Virus record (IMG/VR): IMGVR_UViG_3300042695_000505
Span: 1 to 29,256 of that record
DNA length: 29,256 bases
Direction: 5' to 3' (one strand)
From: a virus
Shown here: in pieces, positions 2 through 24,835 of the stretch
Numbering within the stretch: position 1 is the first letter of the stretch
Layout: every line of letters begins with the position of its first letter
Program-made: the position numbers and the translations under genes
The notes under the pieces: model-generated
Seen by the model: the letters and a program-made list of their open reading frames with translations, nothing else
The model's database searches: none
Told to the model about the DNA's origin: nothing

Positions 2-934
2 ACCCCAAGTAATACACAAACACAAACTAATACACCTACTAATACATCAACACAAACCCCTACGCAAACACCAACTATGACTGGATTTACTATCCCTTGT
101 GTCTGTGTTGAAATAACAGCAACCAATACTGACCCCGAAGGACCAGCAGGTTCAATAACATACAATAATTGTTTTGGAACATTGGTGGGTGAGATATTTT
201 TAACAACGGGAACAAGATACAGGTGTATAGATTATACTGGCGGAGTATTACAAATATTTAGTTCAACAAATGTGACTTATAGTATTGCTTCTGGTTATAG
301 TTGCTCTGGTGGAACTTGTCCTACTGATATTGTTATTCCTTTAACACCAACACCGACTCCTACTAATACTTTAACACCAACCCCTTCAACAACTATTGGT
401 GCATCTCCAACACAAACAGAAACTCCTACGCAAACACCGACCCCTACTAATACAGAAACACCTACACAAACTAACACACCAACTACAACTTTAACAGCAA
501 CACCCACACCAAGTATAACCGCATCACAAACCCCAACCACAACAACAACTTTAACAGCAACACCCACACCAAGTATTACACCACCACTTGAAACTTGTGC
601 CTTCCTCACGGTAAGAACTGACTCAAGTTTAGATGTTCCAATTACAGGTGTTGAGGTAAATAGTGTCCCTGTGACTTATTTATCGGGTGAAACATTCACA
701 ATTATACCAACTGACCCACCAGGTTATTTTAATACAACACAAACAGGGACATCTGTGACTGTGGTAGTAAATTATGGAAGTAATATTGCGGGACAACGAA
801 TAGAGCTTACAGATTGTGATGTTGTAGTTCATTGTTGCGACTTAAACCCTGGTGGTGGAACTTGCACCTTTACAGGAGTTGATTTGAGTTGTAATTGTAA
901 TTGGGAAATACAAGCATACGATGGAACTTGTTAA
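2..934 (+). CDS. Thr/Pro-rich tail fibre-like virion protein (5' partial)
   Basis: The reading frame is open to the first bases of the window, so the true start lies upstream; the ATG at 77 sits inside a Thr/Pro tract and is unlikely to be the start. In order the visible part holds the end of one tract of TPT/TQT/TNT units (to about base 76), a Cys-containing globular segment (about 77-335), a second Thr/Pro/Gln/Asn tract (about 340-595), and a C-terminal Cys-rich segment with an HCC motif and a CNCNW stretch near the end. Low-complexity linkers joining compact Cys-containing domains fit a fibre or surface appendage. It lies just upstream of the tape measure module, which supports a tail role. 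No catalytic motif or receptor-binding fold was recognised, so the exact role is inferred. Confidence 0.6.
   Translation, partial: TPSNTQTQTNTPTNTSTQTPTQTPTMTGFTIPCVCVEITATNTDPEGPAGSITYNNCFGTLVGEIFLTTGTRYRCIDYTGGVLQIFSSTNVTYSIASGYSCSGGTCPTDIVIPLTPTPTPTNTLTPTPSTTIGASPTQTETPTQTPTPTNTETPTQTNTPTTTLTATPTPSITASQTPTTTTTLTATPTPSITPPLETCAFLTVRTDSSLDVPITGVEVNSVPVTYLSGETFTIIPTDPPGYFNTTQTGTSVTVVVNYGSNIAGQRIELTDCDVVVHCCDLNPGGGTCTFTGVDLSCNCNWEIQAYDGTC
485..576 (+). repeat. 32-bp direct repeat, 60-bp period, in Thr/Pro linker
   Basis: Bases 485-516 and 545-576 are identical over 32 bp with a 60-bp period (20 codons). The unit begins ACAACTTTAACAGC and ends CCAAGTAT. The repeat keeps the reading frame, so loss or gain of one unit would only change linker length. 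Confidence 0.85.
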
Positions 935-4864: not shown

Positions 4865-5915
4865 TAAAAAAGCGGTGGATAGAATAATGAAAGTTTTAGG
4901 ACTAACTCAACAATCTTTTTACGAGGCAAAGACCGAACAAGGTATGTCTGTAAAAATGGAGGGTGAGTTGGAAATAGGACAACCACTTTATGTATCCACA
5001 GAAGAAGGTATGATTCCTGCACCCGCGGGAGTTCATAAAATGGACGATGGGACAGAAATTGAAGTTGATGAAATGGGTAAAGTATCTAAAATCAAAATGG
5101 GTCAAACAGAAGACGCAAAAATTGAGGAAGAGAAAGAAGCTAAGGACATCAAGGACGAGGATATGTCTAAAATCGTAGAACAATTTGGGGATGTGAAATT
5201 AAAAGATGGTTCAATTTTAAGAATTGGAGCATTAGAACCTCAATTTGGAACTCGTGTGTTAAAAGTTATGTATGATGGCACTTATTCTGCCCTTGTTGAT
5301 GGTGAATATGAAACCAGTGATGGTAAAATATTATCCATTAATGGTGGGTCAATTAAAGGTGTTCAATCAAAATCAGACTACGACAAAAGAGGGACTGGTA
5401 TGGACGATGAGAAAAAAATACCAGTTGAAAAAATTGGTAAAGCAATTGCTGATGTATTTACGGAGGCTAAAACAATTGATGGTGTTAAATTGGATAGTCC
5501 TACATTTGATGTGGGTGAAACAATTGATGTCGTTAAAGAAGATGGCACAAAGGAAAAAGCACCTGATGGAGAACACGAAATTATCTTAAAAGATAGTGAA
5601 GGTAATGATGTTAAAATCAAAGTTGAGGTTGCTGATGGTAAAATAACTGAAAGAGAAAATATTGAAGAATCACCTTCTAAGGAAGATGAAATGGCAGAAA
5701 TTGCTAACATTTTTTCATTAGCACTTAAAAAGTTTGAGACCAAAATTGACGCAATCGCATCTAAACAAACTGAACTTGAAACAAAGTTTGGCAAGTTTTC
5801 CAAAGAACCTGCGGGTTCAAGAGTTTATACTCAAAAAACAATAAACGAAATAGAAAATCCTATAATGTCTAAATACGATGGTTTTAGAAAATTAAGGGAA
5901 ATGATTAAAAACTAA
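4857..5915 (+). CDS. Scaffold-like capsid assembly protein with three internal repeats
   Basis: The 352-aa protein is acidic and lies between the prohead protease and the major capsid protein, the usual place of a scaffold. The start overlaps the protease gene by 8 nt (ATGAATAG). Three diverged beta-rich repeats are visible at about residues 32-80, 107-170 and 204-264. Each has Val-rich strands, a short DG turn, a DGE/AGVH turn (APAGVHKMDDG, LVDGEYETSDG, APDGEHEI) and ends in a Gly-Lys-Ile/Val turn. The C-terminal part, about 275-325, is helical with a coiled-coil stretch (KFETKIDAIASKQTELETKF), as in scaffolds. No database family could be named; the scaffold role rests on order and the helical tail. 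Confidence 0.6.
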   Translation: MNSKKAVDRIMKVLGLTQQSFYEAKTEQGMSVKMEGELEIGQPLYVSTEEGMIPAPAGVHKMDDGTEIEVDEMGKVSKIKMGQTEDAKIEEEKEAKDIKDEDMSKIVEQFGDVKLKDGSILRIGALEPQFGTRVLKVMYDGTYSALVDGEYETSDGKILSINGGSIKGVQSKSDYDKRGTGMDDEKKIPVEKIGKAIADVFTEAKTIDGVKLDSPTFDVGETIDVVKEDGTKEKAPDGEHEIILKDSEGNDVKIKVEVADGKITERENIEESPSKEDEMAEIANIFSLALKKFETKIDAIASKQTELETKFGKFSKEPAGSRVYTQKTINEIENPIMSKYDGFRKLREMIKN

Positions 5916-5930
5916 AAAAAAGTTAAAAAA

Positions 5931-6905
5931 ATGAAAAAGAATAATTTATCAAAATTAAATTTCAATTATGACTTGGCTGGATTAGCGAATTACACTGACC
6001 AATTATCTGCTGATATTATCAGTGAAGCAGTCCTTACACCGATTACAATGAAATATGTAAATGTGGTGCCAGGAATTAAGGGGACACAAAATGTGAATTT
6101 ATTGAGTGAAACATTAGTTGTCCAAACAGGAACAACTTGTGGTTGGTCTTCATCAGGAGACACTACTTTCACAGTAGCACCTATCACAGTTCAAGCACTA
6201 AAAACAAACACAAGTCTTTGCTTACAGGAATTAAATTCTCTGTGGTTGGGACAATATCTTTCAAGTGGAAGTTATAATGAGAACGCTCCGTTTGAACAAG
6301 CAATTATTGACTTGCAGACTAAACAAATTAAAAGATACAATGAAGATTTATTGTGGAACGCTACATCTGGTTCATCTCAGTTTTCAGGTTTCATAGAAAT
6401 ATTCCAATCTCCTAACTTTGTTTCTAATGGTGGTGTTGAATTAACAGGTCAAACAGCATTATGTTCTGTGACTGGTTCTACAACACAAGAAAAAGCAAAC
6501 AATATTCTTGCACAAGTTGATAATCTTATCAATTCATTAAACAGAAACGTTTATGATAGAGATGATATTATCGTGTATATGTCTCAAAGTCAATTTAAGT
6601 GTTATATGGTTGCGTTGAGAAATGTAAATAACTTCCATTTTACAGAACCTACATTAGGTTCGGTTTATGAAGTGTTCCATCCTCAGTCAAACTATAAAGT
6701 TGTAGGTTGTCCTGGATTAAACGGAAGTAATTTAATTGTTATTGGTCCAATGCAGTATATGCTTGTTGGAACTGACTTAACTTCTGATGAAGATAGTTAT
6801 AGAGCTTGGTGGTCTCAAGACTTCCAAGAGGTAAGAATTATGTCATCTTGGAAATTAGGAACAAATGTTGCGTTCCAAGAGTTTTTCGTGACTAACGGAT
6901 TATAA
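5931..6905 (+). CDS. Major capsid protein
   Basis: The 324-aa protein follows the protease and scaffold-like genes and is followed at once by a strong hairpin, as expected for the most highly expressed virion gene. The N-terminal helix-rich segment (LAGLANYTDQ, ADIISEAVL), the central GTCGWSSSGDTTF turn, the long helix IIDLQTKQIKRYNEDLLWN (about 126-144) and the C-terminal TNVAFQEFFVTNGL suit an HK97-fold capsid protein of Bacteroidota phages. I did not see a separate propeptide beyond the first 20 or so residues. The fold assignment is from resemblance and order, not alignment. Its ATG follows an A-rich stretch with no Shine-Dalgarno. Confidence 0.8.
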   Translation: MKKNNLSKLNFNYDLAGLANYTDQLSADIISEAVLTPITMKYVNVVPGIKGTQNVNLLSETLVVQTGTTCGWSSSGDTTFTVAPITVQALKTNTSLCLQELNSLWLGQYLSSGSYNENAPFEQAIIDLQTKQIKRYNEDLLWNATSGSSQFSGFIEIFQSPNFVSNGGVELTGQTALCSVTGSTTQEKANNILAQVDNLINSLNRNVYDRDDIIVYMSQSQFKCYMVALRNVNNFHFTEPTLGSVYEVFHPQSNYKVVGCPGLNGSNLIVIGPMQYMLVGTDLTSDEDSYRAWWSQDFQEVRIMSSWKLGTNVAFQEFFVTNGL

Positions 6906-7571: not shown

Positions 7572-8057
7572 ATGCTGATTATAAAAACAAATCAACCTAA
7601 CTCTTTGGTGGTCACAGTATCACAGAATAGTGAATTGTCTAACCCTGAATATTTATTTTCATTTACTCATATATTCTCCAAACAAAATGTTTCGTTTATA
7701 CCACTTGATGTTTCATTACATAAAAGTAGATATGATGAATTTTATTTTATTGAGGGTCTTGGTTGTGATGAAATACATTTTCCGTATGAGGGACAATACC
7801 TTTATTCAATTAGCGAACAACCAGCGGGTTCTGGAAACCTTAACCCTGCTCTTGCGTATAATGTGGTAGAAAATGGTGAGGCACAAATCATAGTTCAGTC
7901 AGCAATTACCGTGAATTCACAATTTGATGTGTTTATATCATCAAACGAAGACAATAGCAACTTTATATTCGCACCAGACGAACCAAACCCAACGCCAAAT
8001 ATTACTTGCACGACCTCCCCAACACCTACCCCCACACCCACACCCACAACGCCATAA
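7572..8057 (+). CDS. Beta-rich virion protein with Thr/Pro C-terminal tract
   Basis: The 161-aa protein begins MLIIKTNQPNSLVVTVSQN and appears all-beta, with NPEYLFSFTH and a RYDEFYFIE segment that I associate with small structural proteins of Bacteroidota phages. The last residues are a Thr/Pro tract (TSPTPTPTPTPTTP, bases about 7982-8055), the same low-complexity type as in the fibre-like protein at 2-934 and the 724-aa protein at 22661. The frame ends at a double stop (TAATAA) right after the tract, so it could be the truncated remnant of a longer linker-containing protein. Its ATG lies 5 nt after the T-run of a strong terminator, so it may depend on read-through or a promoter inside the terminator region. 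Function is unknown; a neck or head decoration role is possible. Confidence 0.65.
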   Translation: MLIIKTNQPNSLVVTVSQNSELSNPEYLFSFTHIFSKQNVSFIPLDVSLHKSRYDEFYFIEGLGCDEIHFPYEGQYLYSISEQPAGSGNLNPALAYNVVENGEAQIIVQSAITVNSQFDVFISSNEDNSNFIFAPDEPNPTPNITCTTSPTPTPTPTPTTP

Positions 8058-14638: not shown

Positions 14639-15001
14639 ATGGGAAAACAAATTAAAGATTCAAGAGTAGATGATTTAATGGATATGGTTAAAAAGTTTGA
14701 CTTTACATATCTAATTCAAGATGACCTTGTAAAATGGAAACAAGGAGTAAATAAAGAATATCTTGTTAAAAAACTAATACACGAAGTATTAGGAGTATAT
14801 GGTTTTGATAATTGGAAAAAATTGGAGGCGGCAGTATTAAAATCAACTCCACAAATCCTTTTCCATAATATAGAACACGAAACAATACACAATTGGTTCT
14901 TACCTTATAACAAACCACCTGAAACAAAAAATGCGCCGAGTGCATATAAATTCCAAAATCACCAGTCATTAAAACGAGGTGCTACAAATAGAATGTCATA
15001 A
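14639..15001 (+). CDS. Hypothetical protein
   Basis: This 120-aa protein has a helical first half (DDLMDMVKKFDFTYLIQDDL, KEYLVKKLIHEVLGVYG) followed by LEAAVLKSTPQILFHNIEHE and a polar, basic C-terminus (SLKRGATNRMS). The His-containing HNIEHETIHNW stretch might hint at a metal site, but the spacing fits no motif I know. It ends 1 nt before the HNH endonuclease start, which suggests the endonuclease was inserted at, or tightly coupled to, this stop codon. Confidence 0.55.
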   Translation: MGKQIKDSRVDDLMDMVKKFDFTYLIQDDLVKWKQGVNKEYLVKKLIHEVLGVYGFDNWKKLEAAVLKSTPQILFHNIEHETIHNWFLPYNKPPETKNAPSAYKFQNHQSLKRGATNRMS

Positions 15002-15002
15002 T

Positions 15003-15494
15003 ATGGAAAAAGAAATTTGGGTTGAAATGTGGGATTATCCCACCTATGAAGTGTCTAATCTCGGCAGAGTTCGCAGAGCAAAGACAGAAAGATTACTAAC
15101 AATAAGAGAGGATGGTAATGGATATAATGTTGTTTGTATTTTTTATAATAAAAAGAAACATACTAAAAGATTAGGTAAAGTTATATGGCAGTCTTTCAAC
15201 GAGTGTGATTGTGCTAAAACTATTGACCATATTGATAGAAATAAAAGTAATGATAGACTGGATAATTTAAGATGTGTGACAATGTATAGGAATTATAAAA
15301 ATAGAGTAGGTAAAAAAAGAGAAAACAAATATAATTTAACTCCTGAAATAAAAGCACTTATACATACTAACTTTACTGATGGCATTTGGTCCTCTTGGTA
15401 TGTGAGACAAATATACGGATTACCGATAAACTATACTAAAACCGTGATGAAAAGAAACTCGTGGGAAAAATTTGTGAATAATGAAAGATTATAA
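15003..15494 (+). CDS. NUMOD4/HNH homing endonuclease
   Basis: Residues 1-50 form a NUMOD4 domain (WVEMWDYPTYEVSNLGRVRR), which binds DNA in free-standing homing endonucleases. Residues 65-105 are the HNH nuclease core: IDHIDRNKSNDRLDNLRCVT, with the paired His-Ile-Asp-Arg and Asn residues of the HNH_3 group. Residues 110-163 are helical and resemble the C-terminal helix-turn-helix of such enzymes (TPEIKALI, VRQIYGLP, NSWEKF). All core residues appear intact at 163 aa. ATG at 15003 was preferred over a GTG at 14979 inside the previous gene. The next gene overlaps its end by 14 nt. Such genes usually spread by cutting phage genomes that lack them. Confidence 0.9.
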   Translation: MEKEIWVEMWDYPTYEVSNLGRVRRAKTERLLTIREDGNGYNVVCIFYNKKKHTKRLGKVIWQSFNECDCAKTIDHIDRNKSNDRLDNLRCVTMYRNYKNRVGKKRENKYNLTPEIKALIHTNFTDGIWSSWYVRQIYGLPINYTKTVMKRNSWEKFVNNERL

Positions 15495-17299: not shown

Positions 17300-17791
17300 A
17301 TGAACGACTGGATAGAAAAAAATTATACACAGATGAAAAAGATGTGTGATAAGTTCAGTATTGAAATTGATACTGATGATTTATGCCAAAGTTGCATAGA
17401 ACAATTACTTAAAAATAAAAAAGCAAAAGATATACCTGAAAATAAATTGATGTTTTTCTTCACAAGAATTGTGATGAATAATGCGAAATCAACGACATCA
17501 AATTTTTATACAGAAAATAGAAAATATAAGTTCAGTGAAATAAATAACCTTGAAGTAAAAGATATTGAATATGTTGAAGGAGTGGATTATGATTGGGTAT
17601 TAGAACAAATTAGAGAATTAAAAAAAACACAATGGTATTACGCCAGACTATTTGAGTTGTGGATTGAAGAGGGTTGTTCTCAAACAAAATTATCAAAGAG
17701 AACCACAATACCAATAAACTCAATATCAAGGGACTTAAAAAAATTTAGAGATATATTAAAAGAAAAAAGGAAACAACACTATGGGATGTAA
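17300..17791 (+). CDS. Phage sigma-70-like (ECF-type) transcription factor
   Basis: The 163-aa protein has the two-domain layout of small sigma factors. Residues 1-75 resemble region 2: DTDDLCQSCIEQLLKN (helix after an acidic stretch), KLMFFFTRIVMNNAKSTTSNFY (the region contacting the -10 box). Residues 115-160 resemble region 4: LFELWIEEGCSQTKLSKRTT, then IPINSISRDLKKFRDILKEK, a helix-turn-helix with recognition helix. This protein type is common in Bacteroidota phages. It could direct host RNA polymerase to middle or late promoters. The next gene starts in an 11-nt overlap (ATGGGATGTAA). Confidence 0.7.
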   Translation: MNDWIEKNYTQMKKMCDKFSIEIDTDDLCQSCIEQLLKNKKAKDIPENKLMFFFTRIVMNNAKSTTSNFYTENRKYKFSEINNLEVKDIEYVEGVDYDWVLEQIRELKKTQWYYARLFELWIEEGCSQTKLSKRTTIPINSISRDLKKFRDILKEKRKQHYGM

Positions 17792-18095
17792 TTGTAAAAA
17801 CAAAACTTACTTGGACGCAAAACCAAAAACAATACAAAAAGAAAATGGTGAAATAACTTTTATGATGGAAGCCCCGCCATATACAAGAGAGGAAGTCCAA
17901 AGGGTTAAAAATTATATGGTTGCGTATAATAAAACAGAAACAGAAAAACAATTTATGGTTGAGTTCAACGAAAAGTATTTTGGTGAGGTTATTGTAGGTT
18001 ATTGCGACCAAACTTGTATTAAAACCGTGAATAAGAGATTGGATAGGGCAACAGAATTATTAGACCAATGGGAAGAAATAAAAAACAAAAAATAA
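17781..18095 (+). CDS. Small Cys-containing protein next to sigma factor
   Basis: The 104-aa protein begins MGCNCKNKTYLDAKP and has a second Cys pair late in the chain (YCDQTCIK), so four Cys could bind one metal ion. Between them is a helical region (YTREEVQRVKNYMVAYNKTE) and it ends in a Lys/Glu helix. I have an impression that MGCNCK-starting proteins accompany this sigma-like factor in related phages. It could be a partner of the sigma-like factor, but no family is known to me. The start overlaps that gene by 11 nt. Confidence 0.55.
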   Translation: MGCNCKNKTYLDAKPKTIQKENGEITFMMEAPPYTREEVQRVKNYMVAYNKTETEKQFMVEFNEKYFGEVIVGYCDQTCIKTVNKRLDRATELLDQWEEIKNKK

Positions 18096-18098
18096 TAT

Positions 18099-18698
18099 AT
18101 GAATACAAAATTAGTTAAAATTGAAGACCTCAAGGATAATCCAAATAATCCAAGAGTTATTAAAGATGAAAAATTTAGAAAACTTGTTAAAAGTATAAAA
18201 GAGTTTCCAAAAATGTTGGAAATAAGACCAATAGTTGTAAATGATGATATGATTGTATTGGGTGGTAATCAACGATTAAAGGCGTGTAGAGAGGCTGGAT
18301 TGAAAGAAATACCTGTTATATCAATATCAAACTTAAACGACGAAGAACAGAAGGAGTTTATCATTAAAGATAATACCAGTTATGGTGAGTGGGATTGGAA
18401 CGCACTAACGGAAGGGTGGGATAATAGTTTATTACAAGATTGGGGTATGGACACATTACACTTTGGTAATGTTGGCAGACTTGATGAGGTAAATTATGAA
18501 ACAGAGTGGGTCGGGATGCCAGAATTCCAACCAAGAGATGAAACATATAAATTGATAATCCATTTCCAAAATGAAAATGATAGAGAAGCATTTGCGAACG
18601 AAAAAGAAATTGAAATACAAAGAAAAACAGAGATGACTTGGATTACAAATGTTCCATATAAAACAAAAATGGATTTGACCTCACTACGATATGATTAA
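18099..18698 (+). CDS. ParB-like nuclease-fold protein
   Basis: Residues 1-95 match the ParB/Srx N-terminal fold: KIEDLKDNPNNPR (7-19), KFRKLVKSIKEFPKM, RPIVVNDDMIVLGGNQRLKA (43-62; GGNQR is the GxxR nucleotide-binding box) and EIPVISI. A variable second half, about 105-199, contains a Trp-rich helix (GEWDWNALTEGWDNSLLQDW) and ends with ITNVPYK. Phage proteins of this type often accompany DNA-modification or packaging genes. It is the first gene of a chain with 8-nt overlaps that continues through the glycosyltransferases, suggesting a link to DNA modification or packaging. Catalysis is not shown. Confidence 0.8.
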   Translation: MNTKLVKIEDLKDNPNNPRVIKDEKFRKLVKSIKEFPKMLEIRPIVVNDDMIVLGGNQRLKACREAGLKEIPVISISNLNDEEQKEFIIKDNTSYGEWDWNALTEGWDNSLLQDWGMDTLHFGNVGRLDEVNYETEWVGMPEFQPRDETYKLIIHFQNENDREAFANEKEIEIQRKTEMTWITNVPYKTKMDLTSLRYD

Positions 18699-19458
18699 AT
18701 ATACAATTTACATACCATCAAAAGGACGACCAACAAAATGCCACACAGGAGAGATGTTGAAAGAGACTGGATTAAAATTTTATATTGTTATTGAACCACA
18801 AGATTACGATGAGTATGTAAAAAACTTTAATAAAGAAAACTTATTGGTATTACCATTTTCCAACTTGGGACTTGGTGGATACCCTGCAAGAAATTGGATT
18901 AAAGATTATTCAACAACAGCAGGAGAAAAGAAACACTGGCAATTAGACGATGACCTTTACCACTTGGCAATTTTTAATAAAGGAAAGGAAATAAAAAAAA
19001 CACCAAATGAAATACTTGGATTGATAGAACAATTTACAGACAAATATAATAATGTAGGATTATCAGGACCAAGTAGCAACGCATTCGCTGGATTCCAAAA
19101 AAAACCTTTTAGAATAAATCAACAAATATGTAATTGTGTATTAGTGAATAATGATATACCTTATCGTTGGAGAATAAAAGGAGGACACGATACGGATATG
19201 TCCATACAAGTATTAAAATCTGGACTATGCACCATTTTATTTAATTCGTTTGTGTTTAAGATGGCACCGACAGGAATAAATGAAGGGGGAAACCAAACAG
19301 AGTTATATGATGAAAACGGCTCAAAAAGATTAGGAGAATTATTTACACTACACCCTGAATTACCAATAAAGACATCCAATAAATTTGATAGAATAAGATA
19401 CGATACAAAAAGAGTATGGAGATTATTCAAACAAACATTACAAACAACAAATGAATAA
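18691..19458 (+). CDS. TET-associated-type glycosyltransferase (TAGT), first copy
   Basis: The 255-aa protein carries the signature of TET-associated glycosyltransferases: YIPSKGR (7-13), VIEPQDYDEY (33-42), LPFSNLGLGGYPARNW (54-69), HWQLDDD (82-88, the DxD-like sugar-nucleotide/metal site), IPYRW (156-160), HDTDMS (166-171) and GGNQTELY (199-206). Members of this family are thought to add sugars to hydroxymethylated bases in phage DNA. Here the NED motif of the second copy is replaced by GHD (165-167), so substrate or activity may differ. It begins in an 8-nt overlap with the ParB-like gene and overlaps the second copy by 8 nt. No TET/JBP oxygenase or base hydroxymethylase is visible in the window. 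Confidence 0.8.
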   Translation: MIKYTIYIPSKGRPTKCHTGEMLKETGLKFYIVIEPQDYDEYVKNFNKENLLVLPFSNLGLGGYPARNWIKDYSTTAGEKKHWQLDDDLYHLAIFNKGKEIKKTPNEILGLIEQFTDKYNNVGLSGPSSNAFAGFQKKPFRINQQICNCVLVNNDIPYRWRIKGGHDTDMSIQVLKSGLCTILFNSFVFKMAPTGINEGGNQTELYDENGSKRLGELFTLHPELPIKTSNKFDRIRYDTKRVWRLFKQTLQTTNE

Positions 19459-20353
19459 ATACCCAATATACATAGTATCAAAAGGTAGATGGAAAAAACC
19501 TATCACCGCCGCATTATTCAAGGAATTTAATATGAATTTTAAGGTGGTCGTTGAGCCACAAGAATACGACGACTATTGTAGAGCACTCGGTGAAGAATAT
19601 GTATTACAATTACCCTTTGCGAACTTAGGTCTTGGTTCATATCCAGCAAGGAACTTTTGTTGGGAACATAGCAAAGAACAAGGACATAAAAGACATTGGG
19701 TATTTGATGATAATATATGGAGGTTCCGTAGAATTGTTAAGGGAAAAAGAATACCAGTAAATCCAAACATAGCGATTAAATGTCTTGAAGATTTTATTGA
19801 TAGATATGAAAACATCGGTGTAGCGGGATTCAACTATTCAACATTTGTAGTTCCTGGTGCCAGCGATAAAAAACCTTTTTACCTCAATGTCCATTGCTAC
19901 TCGGCTATGATTATGGATAATGATTTACCTTTTAGATGGAGATTAAAATATAATGAAGATGTGGATTTATGTCTTCAAGTGCTACACAATAACTATTGTT
20001 CCATATTGTTTAATGCGTTCTCGGTGGATAAAGTATCAACATCACAAATGATGGAGGGAGGAAACCAAACAGAATTATATGTAAATAACTCACACGATAA
20101 AAAAATATTAAAGGTTATGTCGTTAGATGAAATATGGAAAGAGGAAGGATATGTGAAAGCAATTATGCGTTATGGAAGACCCCATCACTTCGTAGATTGG
20201 AAGGCACATTTTCATACACCCCTGATTAGAAAAAAAGATTTTAATTGGGACGAATTAAATAAAATTGATAATTACGAAATGGAATTAAAACAAATTAAAC
20301 CAACCAAAAATAAACTATTGGAAGAGTTTTATAAAAACGAAAGAAGCAACTAA
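19451..20353 (+). CDS. TET-associated-type glycosyltransferase (TAGT), second copy
   Basis: The 300-aa protein repeats the motif series of its neighbour: IVSKGR (8-13), VVEPQEYDDY (33-42), LPFANLGLGSYPARNF (54-69), HWVFDDN (82-88), FRWR (161-164), NEDVDL (168-173) and GGNQTELY (203-210). It has a longer C-terminus with YGRPHHFVDWKAHF and a Lys-rich tail that the first copy lacks. The motifs look complete, so this copy may be the main enzyme. The two copies are clearly related but diverged, so this is an old duplication or two acquired paralogues, possibly adding different sugars or a second sugar on the first. It ends 12 nt before the small terminase. Confidence 0.85.
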   Translation: MNKYPIYIVSKGRWKKPITAALFKEFNMNFKVVVEPQEYDDYCRALGEEYVLQLPFANLGLGSYPARNFCWEHSKEQGHKRHWVFDDNIWRFRRIVKGKRIPVNPNIAIKCLEDFIDRYENIGVAGFNYSTFVVPGASDKKPFYLNVHCYSAMIMDNDLPFRWRLKYNEDVDLCLQVLHNNYCSILFNAFSVDKVSTSQMMEGGNQTELYVNNSHDKKILKVMSLDEIWKEEGYVKAIMRYGRPHHFVDWKAHFHTPLIRKKDFNWDELNKIDNYEMELKQIKPTKNKLLEEFYKNERSN

Positions 20354-20365
20354 ATTACAACTATT

Positions 20366-20755
20366 ATGGGATATAAAGATATAAAACCAAGATGGAAACC
20401 TGGAGAGAGTGGAAATCCTAAGGGAAGACCAAAAAAACCAGTCCTCACTATGAAAGTGGAGGGGTATAAACTCGCAGAGATAAATGATACAATACAGATG
20501 ATGGTGGGTATGACCGCAGGGGAATTATTGAAGGTGTGGGAAAATCCAAAAGCAACGATACTTGAAAGAACAATAGCATCAGCATTACGCAAGAGTATTG
20601 AAAAAGGAAACCTTGATAGTGTTGAAACATTATTAAATCGTGTATATGGAAAACCTAATGAGAAGGTGGATATTACCACGGCGGGTGAAAAAATAAATGA
20701 ACCAAGAGTTCAAATAGAAATTTTAAGAGGCAAAGACGAAACTAACAATGGTTAA
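20366..20755 (+). CDS. Terminase small subunit-like protein (DUF5681 motif)
   Basis: The 129-aa protein begins with WKPGESGNPKGRPKKP (residues 10-25), the DUF5681 signature of basic DNA-binding N-termini. It continues with a helical core (MVGMTAGELLKVW, TILERTIASALRKSI, GNLDSVETLLNRVYGKP) of the size and arrangement of small terminase subunits, which recognise the packaging site. The large terminase starts in an 8-nt overlap (ATGGTTAA). The role is inferred from this junction and from the helical layout. Confidence 0.75.
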   Translation: MGYKDIKPRWKPGESGNPKGRPKKPVLTMKVEGYKLAEINDTIQMMVGMTAGELLKVWENPKATILERTIASALRKSIEKGNLDSVETLLNRVYGKPNEKVDITTAGEKINEPRVQIEILRGKDETNNG

Positions 20756-21890
20756 AATACAAACGACAAAAGTATTTGAGGAATTACACACCAGCGATAA
20801 AAGGGTAAATGTGTTTCAGGGTTCATCAAGAGCATCCAAAACATATAACATACTAATTTATTTTATATCCAGATTATTAAACGAGGATAATAAAACATTA
20901 TCACTTGTTCGTAAAACACTACCCGCATTAAAGGGGTCAGTGTTGAGGGACTTAAAAGAAATCCTAATAATGTTTGAGGTGTTTGATAGTAATGACTGGC
21001 ATACAGGAGATGGTTATTATAAATTAGGGACGAATATTATAGAGTGGTTCAGTGTTGATGATGAGACAAAATTGCGTGGTCGTAAAAGAGATTATTTATT
21101 TATCAACGAGGCAACAGAAATTAGTTATGATGAGTATATTCAGTTGATTTTAAGAACGGGTGGTATGGTTGTTATGGACTTGAACCCTTCATTATGGAAG
21201 AGTTGGATATATGACCTTGAAGGACAGGACGATGTGAAATATACTATAACAACATATAAGGATAATCCCTTTTTACCACAAATACAAATAGACGAAATTG
21301 AAAAATTAAAACAAAGAGACCCGAACCTGTGGAGAATATTTGGATTAGGACAAAAAGGCATCCCAACCAAAATGGTATTTACACATCAACAATACTATAC
21401 AGATTTACCACAAGGAGCAAAGTTATTAGGGTATGGTATTGATTGGGGTTATAGCGACCCCTCCACGCTCGTTAAGGTGTCCAAAATGGACGAGAATATA
21501 TTTTGCCAAGAGTTATTATACCTTCGTAATACAACCATCCCAGATTTCATCTACAAGATAAAAGATTTAGGGTTAAATAATACAGATGATTTTATTTGTG
21601 ATTCAGCAAACCCACAAGCAATAGAGGAATTAAGACGCAATGGGATAAACGCAAAACCTGTTAAAAAGAATTCCATATTACACGGCATAGATTTAATTAA
21701 AAGAAATAATTTATTTATACATAATGATAGTATAAATCTCCAACAAGAATTATTTTCTTATATTTGGAAAACAGATAAGAATAATAATAACCTTGACGAA
21801 CCAGTTGATAGTGATAATCACTTAATAGATGGTATAAGGTATGTCCTTGAAATGAAAATAGGCAGAAACACAGGGGTTTATATTTATTAA
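20748..21890 (+). CDS. terL: Terminase large subunit
   Basis: The 380-aa motor-nuclease has Walker A GSSRASKT (25-32), Walker B DYLFINEATE (115-124, catalytic Glu121) and a coupling DLNPS (144-148). The nuclease domain has GIDWGYSDPS (230-239, Asp232), FICDSANPQ (282-290, Asp285) and DSDNHLIDGIRY (354-365, Asp354/Asp356/Asp361), the acidic set expected for the RNase H-like fold. It packages DNA into proheads using ATP and cuts concatemers. Length is on the short side for TerL but all motifs are present. Unlike in most phages, the next genes are tail-type rather than the portal. Confidence 0.95.
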   Translation: MVKIQTTKVFEELHTSDKRVNVFQGSSRASKTYNILIYFISRLLNEDNKTLSLVRKTLPALKGSVLRDLKEILIMFEVFDSNDWHTGDGYYKLGTNIIEWFSVDDETKLRGRKRDYLFINEATEISYDEYIQLILRTGGMVVMDLNPSLWKSWIYDLEGQDDVKYTITTYKDNPFLPQIQIDEIEKLKQRDPNLWRIFGLGQKGIPTKMVFTHQQYYTDLPQGAKLLGYGIDWGYSDPSTLVKVSKMDENIFCQELLYLRNTTIPDFIYKIKDLGLNNTDDFICDSANPQAIEELRRNGINAKPVKKNSILHGIDLIKRNNLFIHNDSINLQQELFSYIWKTDKNNNNLDEPVDSDNHLIDGIRYVLEMKIGRNTGVYIY

Positions 21891-21922: not shown

Positions 21923-22668
21923 ATGACGACGCAGTTCATAGAACACAAAGGAAAGAAATATCCCATCAAAGAACCAACCATTAAAGTTTGGGCTGATGTG
22001 ATGAAATTACAGGGTATATTAGACGAACAAGAAATGTTTGTTAAAATATTAGAAATAAGCACAGGACTTACACAAGAAGAAATACTATCGGCTGACCCCG
22101 CTGAAATTCTTGTAGCAGGGAAACAAGTATCAAGTTTCTTAAACCAACAAGATAAAAAGGTCGTTAAAGAATTTATACATAATGGGGTTGAATATGAATT
22201 TTTAGATATTGGTGATTTAACCTTTGGTCAATTTATAGACATAGACACCTTCCTTACAAAAGACGAAACATACAGAGCACAAAACTTAAATGAATTAGCG
22301 GCATACCTCTACACAGAGAAGGGAAAAAAATATGGGGAAACAAAAATTAAAAAAAGAATAAAAGATTTTGAGGATTTACCGATTAAATACCTTGAAGGCT
22401 CTGTTTTTTTTTTGTTGAGTTCAGCAAAACTATCCGCAGAGATTACCACGCTTTATTCCCAGAGCAGGTTGCTATGGACGATAATGAAACTAAAAATAGT
22501 TTTCAGGCTCATTGGGGCTGGTATTCAGCAGTCAGCACATTATGCCAAGATAAAGTTAGGGACTTTGATTACGTTTCTAATTTATCCCTTTATCAGTGTC
22601 TCAATCATTTATCTTACCTTAAAGACCTTGCTCAAGAAAAAGAAAAACTAATAAAATTAAATGAGTAA
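21923..22668 (+). CDS. Tail assembly chaperone-like protein, split by a -1 frame change
   Basis: The first frame (from ATG 21923) encodes about 163 sensible residues: HKGKKYPIKEPTIKVWADVM, ILEISTGLTQEEILSADPAE, DLTFGQFIDIDTFL and LAAYLY, a pattern like tail assembly chaperones. At a run of ten T (22404-22413) the sense moves to the -1 frame. The join GSVFFFVEFSKTIRRDYHAL continues to FQAHWGWYSAVSTLCQDK, DFDYVSNLSLYQCLNHLSYL and a Lys/Glu end at 22668, giving about 248 aa. Without the shift, frame 0 continues to 22651 with a hydrophobic/basic, unconvincing tail. The -1 frame ends in the usual 8-nt overlap with the next gene (ATGAGTAA), so it is the real end. It could be programmed slippage or a sequence error. 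Confidence 0.7.
22404..22413 (+). other. Ten-T homopolymer at the frame change
   Basis: T10 lies exactly where the sense changes from frame 0 to -1. Slippage by ribosome (TTT-TTT-TTG) or by RNA polymerase on the run would both give the joined protein. The upstream stop in the -1 frame (TGA at 22393-22395) confines the possible shift site to this short stretch. Confidence 0.7.
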
Positions 22669-24835
22669 TCCTTTATACATCAATTTTAAGAATATTGCGG
22701 ATGACCTACAATATATGGTGGAGCATCACAAACAAATCAATTCGTATGGTTTAGGTGATACAGACCAATTGAGTTATTGGACACAAATTAGAGACCAAGA
22801 ACCTAATAACACTTTTGAGTCTCCTATATTTCCATTACTATACATTGTTCCTGGTAGATGTGAAAACAATATACAATATAAAAAGTGGGAATTTAATTGT
22901 GTTATGTTGGATATTGTGGATAGGGATTTAACAAACCAAGTGGATGTGTTTAGTGATACACTACAAATGGTTCAAGATGTGGTCAGTCAATATAGATTAT
23001 CGGTGTGTGATAAGTATGGTAATTTTAACCTTAATTATTATGTTGATGATACGGTGGTATTTGTTCCGTTCTTTGAGGAGTATAGCGACTTGAATAATGG
23101 ATGGAACGGGATAATGAAAATAAACACCACAACACCACTTGATAGATGCGCCGCAGCCTTTAATACCTTTACAGGAACAACAATATATCACGACACAATA
23201 AACTTTAAGACATTCCACGATGATTTTAGATTATTGGCTGATTATCACAAACAATTAAATTCATTTGGTTTTGGAAACTATGAGGATTTATCTTATTGGA
23301 CGGAGAGTAGATTAAAACAAAGCAACCCTACATTTGAGAGTCCGTTTTTTCCATTACTATATGTTGTCCCTTCCAACGCAGAACAAAGGATAGAACAAAA
23401 TGGTTCGTCGTATATGGAATATGAATTTAATTGTATTGTGATGGATATAATAGATAGGGATTTAGCCAACCAAGTTGATGTATTAAGCGACACCAACCAA
23501 ATATTAGATGATATTATATCACAATTTAGATTATCAGTCACAGAAAGTTTAGGGTGTTTTAATTCCAAATATTATCTTGATGAAACAATTGAGATGATTC
23601 CGTTTTTAGAAAGGTATAGTGATTTATGTGGTGGGTGGAATGCGATATTAAAGATTAAAGTAATGTCTCCACTTGATAGATGTAATGCGGCATTTAGACC
23701 ATTTGTGACTCCAACAACCACCGCAACACCTACACCTACCCCAACTAATACTAACACACCTACTCCGAGCATAACACCTACACAAACTAATACCCCAACA
23801 AATACACAAACCCCTACAACCACAACTACTTTAACATCAACTCAAACAAATACGCCTACCCCTACACAAACCCCTACACAAACACAAACACCTACTACCA
23901 CTTTAACCGCAACCCCTACACAAACACCAGCATCTTGTATATGGAATGAAACTATTGCGAATTGGGATAGTAATACGAATTTATGGAATAGTTGTTTCCC
24001 AATTCCTACACCTACTAATACATCATCACCAACGCAAACCCCAACAAATACACCTACGGTTTCATTAACACAAACAAATACACCAACCCCGAGCGCAACA
24101 CCAATAAGTCCATCAAGTCTTAATCCAATGATTTGGATAGATTTTAATAATACATCTACTTTAACTTTAAGGTCAGGACAATATATTACATCAGTATCTA
24201 ATTTGGGTAATTGGACAGCATTCACAGGGTTCTCACAAACAACAGCGGCTAACCAACCAAGTTGGTCTGCTTCAACGATGGGGACAGGTATGAGTGCTGT
24301 GACAATATCAAATGATTTTTTACAGAGCGAAACTATCCTAACTGGTTCAACTTGGAATACTTTTATAGTATTAAAATTTGGTGGAACAAGTCCATTTGCT
24401 CCATTACAACAAAACGGAACATTTGGTGGGGCTAACTCTTGGTCTAACCTTTACGCACAAAGACAATTATCAAGATACGCTAACTACAAGATTGAAGGGG
24501 CAAATGAATATAGGAGAGGGTTTGATGGTTATACAGATTTCAATACAACACACATAGCGCAAGGTTATATGAGTAATTCAGCCTTAACTATTGTGAATTA
24601 TTTTAATGTAAATAATTTACCACAAACTGAAACTATCGTATCTAATACTAATACTACGACAGGGTGGCCAGGAGCAATACCAAATAGTCCAGTATTTAGA
24701 ATAATAAATAACGAAGAGTTTGGGTCATCAATAAATGGTGAAATAGGTGAGATTATAATGTTTGATAAAGAACTTACATCAACACAACAAACGAACCTAA
24801 CAAACTACTTAAAAGTTAAATGGGGAATAACTTAA
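22661..24835 (+). CDS. Fusion of duplicated tail-completion-like domains with a lectin-like domain
   Basis: The 724-aa protein has four parts. Residues 8-170 and 181-347 are two diverged copies of one domain; each has a QIN/QLNSYG or SFG loop, YWT, FESP and PLLY(I/V)VP, (I/V)DRDL and NQVDV, a YSDL...GGW/GW core and PLDRC. Similar single domains act in tail terminator or completion proteins of Bacteroidota phages. Residues about 349-424 and 448-482 are Thr/Pro/Gln/Asn tracts separated by a short Trp-rich unit (IWNETIANWDSNTNLWN). Residues about 483-724 look like a concanavalin/LamG lectin fold, with WIDFNN near its start and GEIGEIIMFDKELT near its end. Lectin domains can bind host surface sugars. 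Joining a tail terminator-type module to a lectin is unusual. Start overlaps the chaperone-like gene by 8 nt. Confidence 0.7.
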   Translation: MSNPLYINFKNIADDLQYMVEHHKQINSYGLGDTDQLSYWTQIRDQEPNNTFESPIFPLLYIVPGRCENNIQYKKWEFNCVMLDIVDRDLTNQVDVFSDTLQMVQDVVSQYRLSVCDKYGNFNLNYYVDDTVVFVPFFEEYSDLNNGWNGIMKINTTTPLDRCAAAFNTFTGTTIYHDTINFKTFHDDFRLLADYHKQLNSFGFGNYEDLSYWTESRLKQSNPTFESPFFPLLYVVPSNAEQRIEQNGSSYMEYEFNCIVMDIIDRDLANQVDVLSDTNQILDDIISQFRLSVTESLGCFNSKYYLDETIEMIPFLERYSDLCGGWNAILKIKVMSPLDRCNAAFRPFVTPTTTATPTPTPTNTNTPTPSITPTQTNTPTNTQTPTTTTTLTSTQTNTPTPTQTPTQTQTPTTTLTATPTQTPASCIWNETIANWDSNTNLWNSCFPIPTPTNTSSPTQTPTNTPTVSLTQTNTPTPSATPISPSSLNPMIWIDFNNTSTLTLRSGQYITSVSNLGNWTAFTGFSQTTAANQPSWSASTMGTGMSAVTISNDFLQSETILTGSTWNTFIVLKFGGTSPFAPLQQNGTFGGANSWSNLYAQRQLSRYANYKIEGANEYRRGFDGYTDFNTTHIAQGYMSNSALTIVNYFNVNNLPQTETIVSNTNTTTGWPGAIPNSPVFRIINNEEFGSSINGEIGEIIMFDKELTSTQQTNLTNYLKVKWGIT
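23705..24106 (+). repeat. Thr/Pro-coding low-complexity tract
   Basis: Two stretches (about 23705-23932 and 24002-24106) consist of degenerate ACA/ACC/CCT/CAA/AAT codon units coding for TPT, TQT and TNT, interrupted by a Trp-rich unit. The same codon mixture appears at 2-76, 340-595 and 7982-8055. The reverse strand reads as a long VGVGV frame, which is a by-product. Confidence 0.8.

Follow-up and report, generated by a model that had tools for sequence, protein, structure and literature searches.

A terminase-adjacent phage cassette of a ParB_N-MPEF protein and two divergent TAGT-family glycosyltransferases as a candidate for DNA glycosylation

The window analysed in this work, by which we mean the whole stretch of 29,256 bases, is the IMG/VR record IMGVR_UViG_3300042695_000505, a linear fragment with the gene content of a tailed phage (terminase, portal, XkdF-like protease and tail genes) for which no near-identical DNA was found among phage records. 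Immediately upstream of its terminase genes lies an operon of three plus-strand genes. The first encodes a 199 aa ParB_N-domain protein (18099-18698; Pfam ParB_N E 3.6e-9) which ends in a module here named MPEF (18483-18698, delimited by HMM classification of TAGT loci and by alignment), and the other two encode TAGT-family glycosyltransferases, namely GT1 of type A (18691-19458, 255 aa; PF20691 E 2.6e-34) and GT2 of type B (19451-20353, 300 aa; PF20691 E 1e-40). They are followed on the same strand by a DUF5681 gene for a probable terminase small subunit (20366-20755; Pfam DUF5681 E 3.8e-10), which precedes terL and is conserved in 39 TAGT-free relatives, and by the gene of the terminase large subunit (20748-21890; PF04466, PHROG terminase families and TIGR01547), which served as the query for finding relatives. 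The DUF5681 gene marks the downstream edge of a slot whose upstream edge is formed, again on the plus strand, by a sigma-factor-like gene with a weak PHROG sigma match (17300-17791; present in 42 TAGT-free relatives) and a small conserved gene (17781-18095; present in 41). Overlaps of 8 nt join the ParB gene to GT1, GT1 to GT2, and the small to the large terminase gene, while the gap between GT2 and the start of the probable small terminase gene measures 12 nt; these five genes look translationally coupled. Thr/Pro-rich, mucin-like repeats are found in structural proteins of the window (77-934, 7572-8057, and 22661-24835), the last of which has two similar domain copies of ~170 residues near its N-terminus, ahead of the Thr/Pro-rich part.

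A sequence-only reading of this DNA had described the two overlapping genes as TAGT-type enzymes, and profile searches confirmed both the family and the 8 nt overlap, with PF20691 scores of 119.4 bits for GT1 and 140.3 bits for GT2 against a curated cut-off of 27.5, and matches of both to PHROG 842 (E 3e-36 and 9e-37, respectively). The two proteins are 39% identical, and their alignment reproduced the motifs listed in that reading in the same order. Both retain the family-invariant residues, which in GT1 are K11, R13, E35, R67-N68, H82-W83, D86-D87, D167, and GGN, and in both the DD of the DD(D/N) metal motif and the later D are invariant. The reported difference of GHD in GT1 and NED in GT2 is real: NED is found in GT2 and most relatives, and in GT1 a histidine replaces the glutamate of "ED." As the first TAGT of locus L096 has GND at this position, the GHD of GT1 appears to mark a subgroup and not decay. 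The structural model of GT1 has a GT-A fold (pLDDT 91.6), in agreement with the assignment of the T6 TAGT to GT-A (PMC13216743), and the beta-glucosyl-HMC-alpha-glucosyltransferase of T2/T6 has both PF20691 and the GT-A fold in common with the window enzymes. The solved chains nearest to the GT1 model are cellulose synthase BcsA, GalNAc-T2, and TarP (VIA Z ~13-15, rmsd 3-4 A); these structure matches are general GT-A enzymes, with protein- or polysaccharide-acting ones numerous among them. Querying the PDB with the GT2 sequence gave no relative, and NCBIfam has no model matching GT1 or GT2. An identity as capsule or LPS enzymes was rejected, as neither protein was placed in such a family by the Pfam or PHROGs searches; a match to a capsule-glycosylating family was among the refutations named in the sequence-only reading. 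The pair does not look like an assembly accident, since an independent contig (L004) carries it in identical form and L005 carries it as a natural variant in which a 35 nt deletion at the 3' end of GT1 (about 1224-1260) leaves the frames open and reduces the overlap to 4 nt.

In a tree of 83 rows, made by a quick method and with some type A rows on long branches, GT2 fell within a 74-row type B group (SH-aLRT 98) and GT1 outside it, on the type A side. Type A further includes the first TAGT of L096, the TET-linked TAGTs of Nonlabens phage P12024L and L046, the TAGTs of phage c5 and L006, and one member of each pair in L099, L007, and L161; the inner branching of type A is unsure because of the quick tree and the long branches. 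Pairs of one type A and one type B enzyme were found in five loci (the window, L096, L099, L007, and L161), and pairs of two type B enzymes in Vibrio phage Kuja and L104. A recent tandem duplication was rejected, GT1 and GT2 being on opposite sides of the SH-aLRT 98 split. The earlier claim that the two are paralogues thus holds in so far as both are TAGT-family, with the refinement that, judged by the tree, GT1 and GT2 are old and divergent paralogues and not a fresh tandem copy. Type B is similar to TAGTs from T4-like phages of Aeromonas, Vibrio, and Tenacibaculum, in which the enzyme has an MPEF-like N-terminal region. Kuja has two adjacent and overlapping TAGT genes, as does the window; in contrast to the window, both are of type B, which suggests a younger duplication, the MPEF region is fused to the TAGT, no ParB_N was detected, and a TS-family gene is present.

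The ParB_N gene and its MPEF module did not feature in the sequence-only reading. The protein is composed of an N-terminal ParB CTPase-like domain (PF02195), the sole domain reported by Pfam, which listed no helix-turn-helix parS-binding domain, and the C-terminal MPEF module, with a TIGR partition model scoring below cut-off; a general Pfam scan reported no ParA among the window ORFs. Foldseek matched the AF2 model of the protein to the CTP-binding clamp domain in ParB-CTP/CDP structures (e.g., 7bm8, 29% identity over 96 columns), and the match covered essentially the ParB domain, the fold of MPEF being modelled with less certainty (pLDDT ~50-90). MPEF is a label coined in this analysis for a module of ~70 aa with the pattern W..MPEF...F....FA....iW.p. 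As our TAGT loci were gathered by similarity to GT2 and its relatives, fractions describe that clade and not all TAGTs, and the ParB frequencies are not those of a random sample: a ParB_N gene lies upstream of the TAGT in 53 of the 91 TAGT loci, mostly overlapping it, and in 27 of these 53, window included, the ParB protein ends in MPEF. In 23 loci lacking ParB, MPEF stands as a gene of its own (~80-100 aa) upstream of the TAGT, in six it is fused to the TAGT, and in TAGT-free loci none was found. A single ORF in L099 carries ParB_N (2-122), MPEF (124-189), and a TAGT (194-454), and is followed by a type B TAGT; it represents the three genes of the window with the first two joined. A free MPEF copy gave no match in Pfam or NCBIfam, and the MPEF segment of the window none in PHROGs. 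One free MPEF protein (L145, 784-1050) showed a weak and short match to PHROG 2980 (T4 goF mRNA metabolism modulator, E 0.003).

Comparison with 77 terminase-relative loci beyond the same virus, none of which carries the TAGTs of the TAGT-locus set, showed that the slot upstream of terL can hold other DNA-modification genes, a feature absent from the sequence-only reading. ParB_N and Tet_JBP occupy it in L014, whose terL is 87% identical; in L046 (5331-9055) the order is ParB_N, a gene of 160 aa, one that is weakly HAD-like, a distantly related TAGT, and finally Tet_JBP, possibly a multi-step base modification cassette; in L067 the slot contains ParB_N and ABC/GNAT, and in L016 an N6/N4 DNA methyltransferase. 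Two Mom-family genes (PF25680) stand in tandem behind ParB_N in L041 (6125-7473), which parallels the window's pair of TAGTs in this slot. TET/JBP HMM matches were obtained in 10 of the 77 terminase relatives, in each case just upstream of terL, and Pfam confirmed Tet_JBP in L014 and L046. ParB_N precedes TET, Mom, and GNAT genes as well as TAGTs, and similar orders are seen in Leptospira phage LE3 (ParB-GNAT-terL), Bacteroides phage BS-TP3 (ParB-MTase-terS-terL), and phage c5 (cos, ParB, TAGT, terL). A published thymidine-hypermodification ParB-TET cluster in Rhodococcus phage Tonitrus is likewise headed by a ParB-like gene, there followed by TET-like, aGPT-PPlase2, and 5hmU kinase genes where the window has two TAGTs only (PMC11955845). 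The window genes consistently common to TAGT loci are ParB (59 loci), GT1 (81), and GT2 (81), the others being only terminase and some structural genes; the cassette of ParB, GT1, and GT2 therefore seems, on this distribution, to have been gained as one block in a DNA-modification slot. This exchange of cassettes in the slot is the strongest evidence for DNA as the target, which is the likeliest one because the slot otherwise holds TET/JBP, Mom, GNAT, and DNA methyltransferase genes.

In T-even phages hmC is made by a dCMP hydroxymethylase and the first glucose is added by alpha-GT. Neither was seen in the window, and neither alpha-GT (PF11440) nor beta-GT (PF09198) was among the Pfam matches of its proteins. 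Profile searches bore out the earlier statement that TET/JBP, TS-type hydroxylase, and kinase are missing here: the record contains no Tet_JBP, and a Pfam scan of the other 36 ORFs (E 0.01) assigned none of them to the TET, thymidylate synthase, methyltransferase, or kinase families. In 43 whole viral TAGT records of this clade, no Tet_JBP above cut-off and no thymidylate synthase family was found, whereas the controls returned TET in P12024L and TS in the large TAGT phages henriette 12B8, Kuja, and PTm1. As most IMG/VR records are fragments, in which single absences are weak, most weight is carried by complete cultured genomes; neither TET nor TS was found in the complete Lactobacillus phages c5 and phiLdb, nor in the nearly complete Vibrio phages 1.124.O and 1.076.O. 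Five distinct TAGT loci were found in bacterial genomes, all on MAG contigs, so that they provided no complete prophage for this check. Judged by these profile searches, the absence of a recognisable hydroxylase appears usual among TAGT-bearing phages. The nearest arrangements differ in their neighbours: in P12024L and L046, whose TAGTs lie on the GT1 side of the tree and the latter of which has the same terminase slot and also ParB_N, Tet_JBP adjoins the TAGT, where the window instead has a second TAGT and no TET; c5 and phiLdb resemble the window in having ParB_N and TAGT genes immediately ahead of the terminase and no TET or TS, yet they have a single divergent TAGT (two ORFs in phiLdb) and no MPEF could be recognised.

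We consider it rather probable that the locus is a horizontally acquired, terminase-adjacent DNA-glycosylation cassette of three genes with sequentially acting TAGTs. The family, the fold, the operon, the paralogy, the module fusion, and the slot swapping on which this builds are directly observed; from them we infer DNA as the acceptor, and the cassette would probably coat the phage's DNA with sugars and so shield it from bacterial defences. The ParB_N-MPEF protein is probably a clamp loaded on DNA or a docking subunit and would bring the two GT-A TAGTs to replicating phage DNA, where they may act in sequence to leave the base with a disaccharide or a further decorated sugar, and this sugar would block restriction or Cas nucleases. 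The sequence is compatible with either a disaccharide or, as also named in the sequence-only reading, the decoration of two base types. In T2/T6, enzymes of the TAGT family attach the second glucose to DNA with alpha-glucosyl-hmC (PMC13216743). Hints on the order of action conflict. The grouping of GT1 with TET-linked TAGTs suggests that GT1 may make the base-proximal bond; conversely, type B stands alone in most cassettes and type A shares the middle position with FkbM methyltransferase, sulfotransferase, and GT32-like genes, which suggests that type A decorates a sugar that type B has already attached. These middle genes lie between ParB-MPEF and TAGT in L116 (sulfotransferase, 2155-2778), L101 (FkbM methyltransferase, 5352-5996), and L093 (GT32-like, 1387-2031), which hints that the sugars there may be sulfated, methylated, or branched. 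Epimerase and UDP-glucose dehydrogenase genes are also among the neighbours in other TAGT loci and, as they adjoin several TAGTs, point to varied sugar donors; the window, being without sugar-nucleotide enzymes, would use host UDP-sugars. With regard to the proposed protection, palindrome O/E values in the window are 0.50 for 6-mers and 0.67 for 4-mers, an avoidance as strong as in relatives and thus no sign of relaxed restriction pressure; the means differ between the TAGT and TAGT-free sets, but so do the hosts of these sets.

How the DNA would become an acceptor can be explained in more than one way. It is possible, if on balance improbable, that an unrecognised hydroxylase of the phage or its host, with no relation to TET or TS, supplies it. 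Several window genes at 11.7-17 kb match no family, and the L099 record has a radical SAM protein and that of L106 one 2OG oxygenase; however, the unassigned genes of the window were not met again in any other TAGT locus, which leaves no shared phage candidate, and the generic 2OG oxygenase PF13640 is present in only one of 48 records. Also on balance improbable is the alternative that ParB_N, MPEF, and TAGT make up a self-contained DNA glycosylation system that dispenses with a phage TET/TS hydroxylase and reaches the base or another DNA group by an undescribed route, with additional enzymes (the second TAGT, GT32-like, O-methyltransferase, or sulfotransferase) diversifying the sugar.

The most serious rival, although in our estimate an unlikely one, is that the sugars go to a protein of the virion or the host, for instance by O-glycosylation of the mucin-like structural proteins rich in Thr and Pro that are typical of this phage family, two of which (77-934 and 22661-24835) the window itself encodes. 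The resemblance of the GT1 model to polypeptide GalNAc-transferases and COLGALT1 among GT-A folds, and the lack of a base hydroxylase, would fit such a target, as would the FkbM methyltransferases, sulfotransferases, and epimerases encoded near other TAGTs, which could also serve to decorate glycoproteins. Yet 31 of 36 TAGT-free relatives but only two of 51 TAGT loci have Thr/Pro-rich stretches, so that these proteins and the TAGTs do not travel together; moreover, the slot otherwise houses DNA-modifying enzymes, ParB_N is a DNA-partition-type domain that in L099 is fused to the TAGT, and the cassette adjoins the terminase and not the capsid or tail genes. Least probable of all, and in our view very unlikely, is ordinary TAGT biology with a hydroxylase in an unsequenced part of the genome, an option raised in the sequence-only reading: the record is a linear fragment, and henriette 12B8, Kuja, and PTm1 do have a TS-family enzyme and P12024L a TET, but in four relatives, whose gene order closes the map on itself, the stretch between the window ends is taken up by the rest of a tail gene and Thr/Pro-rich structural proteins, the TET of this slot family sits just upstream of terL in a region fully sequenced here, and neither TET nor TS is found in the 43 TAGT records, c5, phiLdb, or Vibrio 1.124.O and 1.076.O.

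The sequence-only reading had called the combination unreported, which is not fully right. Tandem TAGTs are public in Kuja, TAGT-only phages have been published, with 288 of 753 phage genomes that encode DNA glycosyltransferases having a TAGT but no alpha-GT or beta-GT (PMC13216743), and ParB-TET clusters are likewise already known (PMC11955845). For the ParB_N-MPEF-TAGT module, the pairing of types A and B, and the exchange in the slot, no report was found in the searchable literature, which did not extend to key earlier papers on TET/TAGT operons. The locus offers a concrete module, a recurring A+B pair, and a natural fusion. TAGT-only phages are numerous, and cultured phages with small genomes make the question of the acceptor approachable; should DNA be glycosylated with no TET- or TS-type hydroxylase involved, this would be new DNA modification chemistry. 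The terminase-adjacent slot, in which TET, Mom, GNAT, methyltransferase, and TAGT genes interchange, is a hunting ground for further DNA modification enzymes. Some of the terminase relatives also carry relatives of a NUMOD4/HNH homing-type endonuclease gene located at 14979-15494 of the window.
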